A DNA stretch of 25,633 nt from a virus, in the IMG/VR virus record IMGVR_UViG_3300047287_000129, positions 1 through 25,633 of that record, one strand, 5' to 3'. The notes under the pieces were generated by a model. The model ran no database searches. It saw nothing but the letters and a program-made list of their open reading frames with translations, and was not told the DNA's origin. A program made the position numbers and the translations under genes. Shown here one piece after another: positions 1,051-5,057 of this stretch. How positions within the stretch are numbered: the stretch's first letter is position 1; the number at the start of each line of letters is the position of its first letter.

Positions 1051-1437
1051 TTAGAGTTTAGTAATTTTAATTGTTCCCATTGTACCACTAGGTAGAGCTG
1101 GAGAGGAATAGACATTATCCCAATTGTACTCCATTGCAAGTTGATGCAATATAGTTCTTGAAATCTGATAGCAGTTGCCAATAAACTCGGTGCTGTTATA
1201 GCCATAACTCTCGTTATCTGCAAAGTTAGGAAGAAGAACTCTCTTAACCTCTCTCAATAGAGCATCAGCATGTTCTCTACGTTTTAGCTGCTCCTCAAAC
1301 GACAGTCCTTCAATCATCTCATCAATGGTACAACGTAGTTGACATTGTCCAGAAGCAAATCGACCCACATCATCAAGGCAGTCAGCTATCAGTCTCATCT
1401 GCTCTTCTGATAATTCAATTGTGTACTTTTTACTCAT
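1051..1437 (-). CDS. Conserved phage hypothetical protein (128 aa)
   Basis: The protein starts MSKKYTIELSEEQMRLIADCLDDVGRFASGQ and is predicted to be soluble and mostly helical. The opening (IELSEEQMRLI, then a central SFEEQLKRREHADALLREVKR helix and a C-terminal region with GYNSTEFIGNCYQISRTILHQL) resembles proteins I recall from Bacteroidota phages and prophages, with no known function. It is the gene directly downstream of the long folded non-coding region 1441-1800 on the same strand, so that RNA would be its 5' leader if not separately processed. The gap of 12 bases to the next gene (784-1038) suggests a shared transcript. Confidence 0.8.
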   Translation of the reverse strand: MSKKYTIELSEEQMRLIADCLDDVGRFASGQCQLRCTIDEMIEGLSFEEQLKRREHADALLREVKRVLLPNFADNESYGYNSTEFIGNCYQISRTILHQLAMEYNWDNVYSSPALPSGTMGTIKITKL

Positions 1438-1477
1438 TGCTGTTTAAATTTTATTTTGTTTACTTAGTTAGTGGTTG

Positions 1478-1773
1478 TTCGGAAATTCCGAATTACTGTA
1501 ACACCCGAAGGCGGCTGTCTTTCCATGCTGTCAACCTTTTTAAACGACGTCGAGAAGGTTAACTCTATCTCCTATACGATGAGAACAGTTACTTGAGCTT
1601 GTGTCAGAGGCTTACTGTGTTTTACGATCTCCTGGCCAACGGAGCTAATAAGTTAAATCACGGTAACAGTTTACTGGAGTTTAGTGATTAGTTAGAAGTA
1701 TATGTACATCTCAATCTAACATCGTTCATCCAAGGTACTAATAGCTAATTAGTTACGAGCTGTCACCGTGATT
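1478..1773 (-). ncRNA. Candidate structured RNA A / long 5' leader
   Basis: No credible ORF fills 1438-1866. Read on the minus strand, the sequence forms a 14-bp helix (1656-1669 with 1760-1773) closing a domain with nested helices (1681-1690/1739-1748 with an internal loop; 1691-1696/1715-1720), a 9-bp hairpin (1530-1538/1555-1563), a hairpin with a cUUCGg tetraloop (1502-1505/1510-1513), a CTCC/GGAG hairpin (1629-1632/1641-1644) and a 5-bp palindrome (1478-1482/1488-1492). Non-Watson-Crick positions in the 14-bp, 9-bp and UUCG helices are G-U on the minus strand and A-C on the plus strand, which points to the minus strand as the transcript. It could be a leader or a free ncRNA. Confidence 0.55.
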
Positions 1774-1793
1774 AGTTTCTATCTTCGAGTAAT

Positions 1794-1801
1794 CAAATAT
1801 A
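1794..1801 (-). promoter_or_regulatory. Candidate promoter -7 box for RNA A and 1051-1437
   Basis: The minus strand reads TATATTTG, an exact match to the Bacteroidota -7 box TAnnTTTG. Transcription would begin near 1788, just before the folded region. No clear TTTG element lies 19-21 bases upstream; that position falls in the loop of the hairpin 1802-1854. Confidence 0.4.
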
Positions 1802-3523: not shown

Positions 3524-3547
3524 GTTTTTAAATTTTAGTTAATGATT

Positions 3548-3738
3548 AGTTTGTACCCCTCTGCACTCAATACTCTTATCCTATTAGAACTTGTTTGTCT
3601 AACATCACGGATAAGTTAAGACTTTACGTAGTCAAGTATTGCTCAGCCTTGGGAACTGAGTTATGGTGCATTAGTACAAACCAACAACATATCAGTCGAA
3701 AGACTTGTATCGACAAATCAGACCTCAATGCTGTTGGT
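3548..3738 (-). ncRNA. Candidate structured RNA B
   Basis: The whole gap between two minus-strand genes (3524-3744) folds into nested helices with little left over: 3550-3556/3674-3680 and 3562-3566/3666-3670 (outer stem with internal loop), 3568-3574/3635-3641, 3575-3581/3609-3615, 3584-3588/3598-3602, 3620-3623/3630-3633, 3642-3646/3656-3660, and a second domain 3681-3690/3728-3737 with an inner hairpin 3694-3697/3702-3705. The only non-Watson-Crick pair in the 10-bp helix is G-U on the minus strand. The result is two domains, one with a multi-branch junction. It may be an independent ncRNA or the regulatory leader of 3107-3523. Confidence 0.6.
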
Positions 3739-3744
3739 TTAATG

Positions 3745-3924
3745 TTATTGATGCAGTTTATATTCTTTGATTCTGAAGATAATCAAGTAAAATAAAAAGC
3801 ATGATACGAAAACTAGAAAGGTGTTTACATACCATTCTACGTTTAGTGTTGTGTTTGCTAAGTAGATCAATCCTAAGCTGTCTAAGAAAGCAGCAATGAT
3901 GATGATTAACAGTAAGTGTTTCAT
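3745..3924 (-). CDS. Small two-span membrane protein (59 aa)
   Basis: The ORF starts MKHLLLIIIIAAFLDSLGLI and continues through YLANTTLNVEWYVNT to a second hydrophobic segment (FLVFVSCFLFYLIIF, residues 36-50) and a basic tail RIKEYKLHQ. Two membrane spans (about 3-22 and 34-50) joined by a short polar loop are predicted. Its stop at 3745 is 7 bases from the first helix of structured RNA B. Small membrane proteins of this sort in phage accessory blocks may be inhibitors or holin-like, but no motif supports a specific role. Confidence 0.65.
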   Translation of the reverse strand: MKHLLLIIIIAAFLDSLGLIYLANTTLNVEWYVNTFLVFVSCFLFYLIIFRIKEYKLHQ

Positions 3925-4126: not shown

Positions 4127-4262
4127 GTTGAATGACTGTTGCATAACAATGTGTTATAGAATTTGATAGACTAATTTGTAGGCATTAGTCAATTTGCCTT
4201 GAAAGGGTTGAAGAGATCCTGGTAATCAGTCACTTAGCATCGTTTAGTTAACGATTTACTTT
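4127..4262 (-). ncRNA. Candidate structured leader C
   Basis: Between the terminator at 4294-4317 and the start codon at 4126 the minus strand forms a hairpin ATCGTT/AACGAT (4239-4244/4250-4255), then an 8-bp stem (4227-4234 with 4131-4138) that ends 4 bases before the start codon and encloses two hairpins, GACTAAT/ATTAGTC (4169-4175/4184-4190) and ATAAC/GTTAT (4143-4147/4153-4157). The one non-Watson-Crick pair of the closing stem is G-U on the minus strand and A-C on the plus. Position suggests control of ribosome access to the 49-aa gene. Confidence 0.45.
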
Positions 4263-4293
4263 ACGTGATGATTATTCTCAAGCTCCCCCCAAT

Positions 4294-4317
4294 AAAAAAG
4301 AGAGGGCCGAAGCCCTC
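4294..4317 (-). terminator. Intrinsic terminator after 4321-4527
   Basis: On the minus strand GAGGGC pairs with GCCCTC (4302-4307/4312-4317) around a cUUCGg tetraloop and is followed by TCTTTTTT. It begins 4 bases after the stop codon. Confidence 0.92.
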
Positions 4318-4320
4318 ATC

Positions 4321-4527
4321 TTATTTTAGCCAACCCTCGGCTTTGCAATGAGCCAGGAAGTCTGTGTACTGTGGGTCTTCCTTTCGGCAATAAGTGATAA
4401 TCTCCTTAATAGGAAGTTGACCTGGTACAAAAGTGAATTCAGCATCTTCTACGATGATTGTACCAGTAGAAGAAATGTAAGCTCGATAAGCAGGAGCTTC
4501 CGGAGCAGGAGCAGATGTTTTTGCCAT
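4321..4527 (-). CDS. Small hypothetical protein (68 aa), first leftward gene
   Basis: The protein starts MAKTSAPAPEAPAYRAYISS and has a Pro/Ala-rich flexible N terminus of about 13 residues followed by a compact domain: TGTIIVEDAEFTFVPGQLPIKEIITYCRKEDPQYTDFLAHCKAEGWLK. It is the first leftward gene next to the divergent control region and has its own strong terminator, so it forms a single-gene early unit. That position is typical of proteins made in quantity early in infection. No family is recognised, and there are no membrane segments. Confidence 0.75.
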   Translation of the reverse strand: MAKTSAPAPEAPAYRAYISSTGTIIVEDAEFTFVPGQLPIKEIITYCRKEDPQYTDFLAHCKAEGWLK

Positions 4528-4606
4528 AAGATTGTGGTATTAGTGTGACCGGGACATTCCGATGCACAATACTTAGCCGGGGTCTTTGAATACGTAGGAC
4601 ATCACT

Positions 4607-4670
4607 CTCAAAAATTTCCCATCTAAAAATTTTTAACCCTCAAAAAATTTCCCCCTAAAATTTTTTTTAG
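4607..4670. repeat. Four tandem 16-bp A/T-tract repeats
   Basis: Four head-to-tail units of exactly 16 bases: CTCAAAAATTTCCCAT, CTAAAAATTTTTAACC, CTCAAAAAATTTCCCC and CTAAAATTTTTTTTAG. Units 1 and 3 match most closely, as do 2 and 4. Such iterated A-tract units are typical of protein-binding arrays (repressor, HU/IHF-like or replication initiator). Confidence 0.75.
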
Positions 4671-4758
4671 TTGGTGAGTTCTACTACCCATCTTGTCGAT
4701 GTCAACTAAATGGTGTAAAAAACTTGACACTTCATCCTTGATTCTCATTCTTTAACAT

Positions 4759-4766
4759 CAAAGCTA
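4759..4766 (-). promoter_or_regulatory. Possible leftward -7 box
   Basis: The minus strand reads TAGCTTTG, matching TAnnTTTG. No -33 element is seen at the usual distance. If used, it would give a leader of about 230 nt for 4321-4527 that includes the 16-bp repeats. Confidence 0.25.
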
Positions 4767-4790
4767 TTTGTCTATCACATTTTACTTAAT

Positions 4791-4841
4791 TTGATAATCT
4801 AAAGTTGCCGATACCCCTTGGGGATTATTATCAACGGTAAC
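4791..4841 (+). other. Crossing inverted repeats (possible pseudoknot or switch)
   Basis: TTGATAAT (4791-4798) pairs with ATTATCAA (4827-4834), and GTTGCCG (4804-4810) pairs with CGGTAAC (4835-4841) with one G-U on the plus strand. The two helices cross, so they are either pseudoknotted or alternatives. A CCCC/GGGG pair lies between. Confidence 0.4.
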
Positions 4842-4858
4842 CCTTATTCTGGTGACAA

Positions 4859-4867
4859 TTATCCACA
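4859..4867 (+). other. DnaA-box-like 9-mer
   Basis: TTATCCACA is an exact match to the strong DnaA box. It overlaps the left arm of an inverted repeat (CCACA 4863-4867 with TGTGG 4905-4909, TTGTC 4873-4877 with GACAA 4899-4903). A single site could be chance. Confidence 0.3.
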
Positions 4868-5016
4868 TTAGTTTGTCTCAAAAGTTTACTATAGTTTCGA
4901 CAAGTGTGGGAATTCATACCCTATCGGGAGTTTTTTAGAGTAATGACTGAATAATCACACTATAATGTACCTTATCAGGTATAAAAATCACAACATTTTT
5001 TCCTTTATAAAACACA

Positions 5017-5057
5017 TTGTAACCTTGTAACAATTTTATATGTATATTTGTTACCAA
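5017..5057 (+). promoter_or_regulatory. Rightward promoter with TTGTAAC operator-like repeats
   Basis: TATATTTG (5043-5050) matches the Bacteroidota -7 box. Two direct copies of TTGTAAC lie upstream (5017-5023, 5025-5031), and an inverted near-copy GTTACCAA (5050-5057) overlaps the box end and the start codon of the first rightward gene. This bracketed arrangement resembles an operator. Confidence 0.5.

Follow-up and report, generated by a model that had tools for sequence, protein, structure and literature searches.

A predicted pseudoknotted small RNA with a palindromic loop in crAss-like and T4-type environmental phages

Introduction

Bacteriophage T4 encodes two small stable RNAs in its tRNA cluster, rnaC (species 1, 139 nt) and rnaD (species 2, 119 nt); only a few nucleotides separate the two from each other and from a tRNA. 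The RNAs of type III toxin-antitoxin systems (ToxI and relatives) contain an H-type pseudoknot, and these antitoxin RNAs are short tandem repeats beside the toxin gene. At a much larger size, GOLLD (RF02032) is a phage RNA of more than 800 nt that occurs near tRNA islands, forms a 14-mer cage and has a palindromic, covarying, symmetric kissing loop (PMC12286853). OLE, a protein-bound, non-phage RNA of about 600 nt found mostly in Bacillota, has a symmetric kissing loop (L9.3) in which the palindrome GGCC exchanges with GAUC or AGCU (PMC12286853). The switching of palindromes in OLE L9.3 and GOLLD L21a supports the intermolecular bridges seen by cryo-EM (Kretsch et al., PMC12286853). Also, the theta (HDV-like) ribozymes of gut phages, which self-cleave and have the HDV double-pseudoknot fold, are located flush with phage tRNAs (PMC10879173).

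Here we describe module B, a predicted 114-nt phage RNA that apparently has not been described before. Its nearest relatives by kind are T4 rnaC and rnaD, which are likewise phage-encoded, of similar length and placed as module B is in many loci. This is a likeness of kind and not a homology family: the two T4 RNAs score 8.7 bits against the module B model, with no sequence or structure homology detected, and rnaC has a tRNA T arm that module B lacks. Module B shares with GOLLD the neighbourhood of tRNAs and a palindromic loop, but has another fold and a far smaller size, and the GOLLD model at its gathering score does not match it. The loop of its P1 hairpin is similar to OLE L9.3, whereas size, host range and the protein-bound state set OLE apart. 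Further, module B can be flush with tRNAs as theta ribozymes are; the nested double pseudoknot of theta/HDV-like RNAs is absent from it, the predicted fold being P1, P2, P3 and one simple H-type pseudoknot, and no ribozyme family matches. The H-type pseudoknot is held in common with ToxI, but module B is a single copy and not a tandem repeat.

The intergenic region and its modules

The window, that is, the whole stretch of DNA analysed, is a 25.6-kb IMG/VR virus record. Matches to PHROG 6681 (terminase), 6547 (portal) and 11589 (major head protein) were found in it, which we take to be a crAss-like set. The stretch flagged for study, 1441–1801, is a minus-strand intergenic region between the open reading frames at 1867–2064 and 1051–1437. 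The latter had no match in PHROG or Pfam searches. In the window, module B lies between modules A and C, ahead of gene 1051–1437. The predicted features are as follows.

1794–1801, minus strand: TATATTTG, a possible Bacteroidota-type −7 box, conserved in the closest relative (L001)
1651–1775 (about), minus strand: module A, a second, separate structured RNA closed by a 14-bp helix (1760–1773/1656–1669)
1533–1646, minus strand: module B, conserved structured RNA of 114 nt (match to covariance model R1 of 133.9 bits, E 5e-31)
1629–1644, minus strand: P1 hairpin of module B, stem 1641–1644/1629–1632, with double-sided changes in 4/4 pairs
1633–1638, minus strand: palindrome UGGCCA in the loop of the P1 hairpin
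1585–1618, minus strand: P2 helix (1614–1618/1585–1589) with a variable interior and double-sided changes in 5/5 pairs
1568–1584, minus strand: P3 hairpin UCUC-AUCGUAUAG-GAGA with a nearly invariant loop
1534–1565, minus strand: H-type pseudoknot, S1 1563–1565/1552–1554 and S2 1555–1559/1534–1538, both stems covarying
1498–1532 (about), minus strand: module C, a short conserved piece with a cUUCGg hairpin (1502–1513)
1051–1437, minus strand: open reading frame downstream of the flagged stretch, 128 aa, with 24 relatives in viral contigs

The original prediction read 1441–1801 as one structured RNA of about 350 nt on the minus strand, either a leader or a free ncRNA. The sequence features it named are all present, and a structured RNA on this strand is borne out by homologues. 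Its free ncRNA option stands, while the single leader does not: module B is found without module A in nearly all relatives, and on this comparison the stretch holds at least two separate RNA modules rather than one 350-nt leader. A single 350-nt fold was rejected, as its stability was not unusual (minus strand, z = −1.28, 13/100 shuffles as good), and the plus strand of the same stretch was similar (z = −0.82). Because the 350-nt fold is near its shuffles on both strands, thermodynamics alone is insufficient to justify the finding. The evidence beyond chance for the predicted RNAs comes from homologues and not from folding energy.

Module A folded alone is more stable than its shuffles (z = −3.94, 0/200), and homologues were found in three loci only, L001 and L106 (one contig) and L083. 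The 14-bp helix noted earlier at 1656–1669/1760–1773 is real and has one minus-strand G–U pair; double-sided change occurs in L001 and L083, with an A–U to C–G compensatory change and several G–U pairs among the homologues. Module C gave blastn matches in 14 loci, some of them partial only, and follows module B in 7 loci; the cUUCGg hairpin exists as described, and relatives carry ACACCUUCGGGUGU at that site. The box at 1794–1801 had been put forward as part of a leftward promoter. The motif is there, but with 34 occurrences of TANNTTTG on the two strands of the window, the box alone is weak promoter evidence.

Structure and covariation of module B

The covariation alignment (A2) comprised 82 copies aligned by covariance model, 73 of them distinct, and was fitted to the nested structure and not to pseudoknot stem S2. 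Across P1, P2, P3 and S1/S2, standard pairs make up 96.3% of cells, and double-sided changes are seen in 17/23 pairs. The covariation score was 0.251 compared with 0.107 in shuffles, none of 500 of which matched it, and sliding the partners by one to three columns as a control lowered pairing to 38–57%. The same structure emerged from an independent alignment of 51 copies made with MAFFT. P3 was invariant in the first sequence set, partly owing to search bias from the first pattern, and a compensatory C–G to A–U change in it was found in L213 and L214 of the second set. G–U cells outnumber A–C cells by 23 to 3, and therefore the RNA would be the minus strand of the window, in agreement with the direction originally proposed; the neighbouring tRNAs are always on the same strand. 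Taken together, the alignments show module B as a predicted minus-strand RNA with sharp ends, composed of helices P1, P2 and P3 and an H-type pseudoknot. The covariance search in relatives that had been suggested as a check on the region thus found conserved pairing in the module B homologues.

Two pairings that had been picked out in the window take on another meaning in this fold. The 9-bp pairing 1530–1538/1555–1563 exists, but only its inner five pairs are kept across homologues, and these (1534–1538/1555–1559) would form pseudoknot stem S2 and not a plain hairpin. The pairing of CTCC with GGAG at 1629–1632/1641–1644 is the conserved helix P1. An alternative fold of CTCC with the second GGAG at about 1569–1572 was also considered and is contradicted by P1 covariation: many copies have CCAC/GUGG in P1 and yet keep the second GGAG as it is.

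Module B alone has no folding-energy signal (z = +1.82), plausibly because the pseudoknot cannot form in such folding. Screening by folding energy would overlook this RNA, the best conserved one of the region.

Conservation and distribution

A blastn comparison with 30 loci, most of them found via neighbouring proteins, revealed module B as one piece that is about 94–99% conserved in many of these loci and has no fixed distance from any gene. In six loci with both, module B is 89–98% identical to the window and the adjacent gene 72–80% (nucleotide). Such strict conservation beside diverging genes makes strong selection on this noncoding RNA probable. With an exact 17-mer from module B, 90 stretches were recovered in viral contigs (IMG/VR), and a pseudoknot-based pattern recovered 66, adding L212, L213 and L214. 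The pattern ATCGTAAAACACAG alone gave mostly chance matches, with L161 as the sole new copy among further loci. The covariance model found exactly one copy in each of the 35 long virus records (35/35); at a relaxed threshold, a weak second match in G016 (19.2 bits) corresponds to a shorter module nearby that has the pseudoknot in common with module B. The 14 loci with relatives of the neighbouring genes and no core match yielded no distant copy, except for G016, which was already positive.

The crAss-type terminase (PHROG 6681) matched strongly in 18/35 records and by a tail match only in six. One of these six, G029 (160 kb), has a T4-type terminase (PHROG 2, Pfam Terminase_6N). Because both terminase types are found among the carriers, module B appears to cross phage lineages and, judged by these markers, its carriers among environmental phages belong to at least two unrelated groups, crAss-like and T4-type.

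Module B is known from environmental contigs only. It was not found in 50,697 GenBank phages by blastn, nor in GTDB genomes by pattern scan, where one exact 19-mer in a Coriobacteriia MAG was a chance match with no module B around it; diverged members could escape blastn and exact-pattern searches of this kind. Rfam (15) returned nothing on module B at gathering and relaxed thresholds, and neither ARAGORN nor Rfam recognized it as tRNA or tmRNA. The literature on ncRNAs of crAss/Bacteroides phages, tRNA-like arrays and T4 stable RNAs, in a survey that mostly did not cover subscription papers, made no mention of it. Module B is a well-supported, covarying RNA family of single-copy members that spans crAss-like and T4-type phages and is without a match in Rfam 15.

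A palindromic loop and a possible dimer

The P1 loops are GUUGGCCA, GUUGAUCA, GCUCGCGA, GCUCGCGC, AAGCGCG, UAGGCCA, AUGGCCG and one extended hairpin ending in GCGC. A palindrome (GGCC, GAUC, CGCG or GCGC) is present in 8/8 intact loop types, and an identical loop can be found on different stems. When the seven short loops were shuffled, all were palindromic in 0.18% of cases (p about 0.002), a statistic that depends on few independent loop changes. As the adjacent bases are unable to pair inside one hairpin, the symmetric change points to pairing between copies, and module B has covarying palindromes in a loop as homo-oligomeric kissing-loop RNAs do. A hexamer matching the loop was not enriched elsewhere in the same arrays, and therefore there is no apparent cis partner. 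These observations lend moderate support to a symmetric kissing-loop dimer, in which two copies of module B would pair via the palindromic P1 loop. On the loop evidence alone, the palindromes could possibly also be sites at the DNA level, for restriction or protein binding. The palindromic loop offers a route to asking whether small phage RNAs, and not giant ones alone, act as homo-oligomers, and the 114-nt length of module B suits structure determination.

Genomic context

In 20/73 loci (background 0.13%), the start of a same-strand tRNA or tRNA-like gene is no more than 10 nt downstream of module B, and in 38/73 (background 2.1%) it is no more than 150 nt downstream. Upstream, such a gene is found within 150 nt in 8/70 loci, and in 8/70 it ends within 14 nt of module B. 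No tRNA or tRNA-like gene on the opposite strand was found beside module B in the loci examined. The stop codon of a protein gene lies within 10 nt upstream in 26/74 loci and often overlaps the first bases of module B. With a looser classifier applied to 75 contexts, about 40 had a flush tRNA or tRNA-like gene, about 20 had other recurring ncRNA modules, 7 had module C and a gene (the arrangement of the window) and 3 had a protein gene. Relatives of gene 1051–1437 lie 50 to 703 nt away from module B. In L096, about 5 nt separate module B from a tRNA-like gene before it, and a GC-rich hairpin ending in a short run of U comes directly after it; in L118 a terminator-like hairpin lies about 50 nt after module B. 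Neither locus has anything downstream that module B could control, and this speaks for an RNA with a function of its own.

Possible roles of module B

We consider the chances about even that module B is an autonomous small RNA of the phage that is freed from polycistronic transcripts and acts as a homodimer. As a product of about 115–120 nt from a single copy per genome, it would be transcribed within a polycistronic RNA and, in loci with flanking tRNAs, freed by tRNA maturation, with RNase P cutting at the 5′ end of the following tRNA. The kissing-loop dimer would then form through the P1 palindrome and might, more speculatively, act in trans; a defence factor, or the translation or RNA machinery of the host, are examples of what it might act on. 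Two observations speak against an autonomous RNA: the 5′ side of tRNA arrays is favoured far above the 3′ side, which also fits a role in cis, and in the window a protein gene rather than a tRNA comes after module B.

A cis-acting leader at the start of untranslated RNA arrays would be in keeping with the position of module B, which mostly precedes tRNAs and comes right behind the final protein gene. Such a leader would modify the polymerase in the manner of put or EAR, letting it read through the tRNA/ncRNA array or the following gene without terminating early. Both put and EAR are short, structured and cis-acting, and a pseudoknot is part of EAR. We nevertheless regard such a leader as unlikely, given that module B comes last in L096 and L118, ahead of a terminator-like hairpin, that it lies between tRNAs in about 8 loci and that a cis element would not need a palindromic kissing loop. 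The same stop codons that abut or overlap the 5′ end of module B in 26/74 loci, the flush tRNA or tRNA-like gene that follows in many loci and a 3′ end made of a pseudoknot with an A-rich strand could be explained if module B formed and protected the 3′ end of the upstream mRNA, with a cut by RNase P at the following tRNA or tRNA-like gene leaving a 3′-terminal pseudoknot that blocks exonucleases. The MALAT1 triple helix stops exonucleases in this way after mascRNA is cut off. This protective role is likewise unlikely: in the window and in about 10 loci, module B is followed not by a tRNA but by a protein gene or module C, and in at least 8 loci it is preceded by a tRNA and not an mRNA.

A riboswitch-like regulatory leader of gene 1051–1437 composed of modules A, B and C would account for their location directly upstream of that gene in the window and for the 7 loci with module B and module C ahead of a gene; it is improbable, since module B precedes unrelated genes and tRNAs elsewhere and its spacing from relatives of 1051–1437 varies so widely. 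Least probable of all is a self-cleaving, theta-like ribozyme that separates array members: the flush position beside tRNAs and the many invariant unpaired bases would fit, but no Rfam ribozyme family matched, the HDV-like double pseudoknot is absent and neither end of module B consistently adjoins a tRNA. Returning to the autonomous homodimer, a bolder extension, which we hold to be doubtful, is that module B is the founding member of a class of small phage RNAs with self-assembly by kissing loops, as part of a multi-part RNA system that environmental phages encode together with tRNA-like cassettes and other ncRNA modules, and as a small, modular counterpart of the GOLLD/ROOL nanocages.

Neighbouring RNA modules

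Full-length GOLLD matches occur elsewhere in two arrays with module B, in records L214/G049 (L214:2912–3333, plus strand) and L110/G052 (G052:2583–2989, minus strand). The ROOL covariance model (RF03087) had no match in 41 records, and no control genome matched it either.

Downstream of module B in L035, L036, L042, L064, L076, L093, L114 and others are tRNA-like genes whose acceptor, D and T arms are constant (AGTCAGGTGGCGGAATTGGTAGACGC ... ACAGGTTCGAATCCTGTCCTGACTA) and whose anticodon region is replaced by about 20–120 nt of highly variable sequence, giving a total of 61 to 181 nt; some (L010, L064) have D-loop inserts. T4 rnaC (L219:1409–1547), with its perfect T arm CCGGGTTCGAATCCCGG, looks tRNA-like with an enlarged middle and resembles these phage cassettes. 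Right after module B, and before the tRNA-like genes, a module of about 95 nt recurs in L036, L046, L069, L083, L094, L098 and others, with the sequence ACTATTAGT ... ACTAATAGT or one closely similar. The shorter module ATGTACCACGC ... GTTAGCCTTCTTTAGGTC.AAAAAGGC follows module B in L048, L061, L104 and L112 and is also present at G016:7208–7286; it has the pseudoknot of module B and reaches 19 bits against the module B model. Another module, TGTGTTG.. CCTTGAGAAAGG ... CAACACAGAGG..TTCTC..CCTC, of about 90 nt or more, comes after module B in L026, L060, L089, L099 and L114.

Within the window, a further structured intergenic RNA is seen on the minus strand at 3525–3780 (z = −4.0, 0/200 shuffles), with homologues in 8 loci that are partly split into two separated pieces. 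The noncoding stretches 4140–4330 and 4527–5050 contain conserved blocks in 6 and 17 relatives, respectively.
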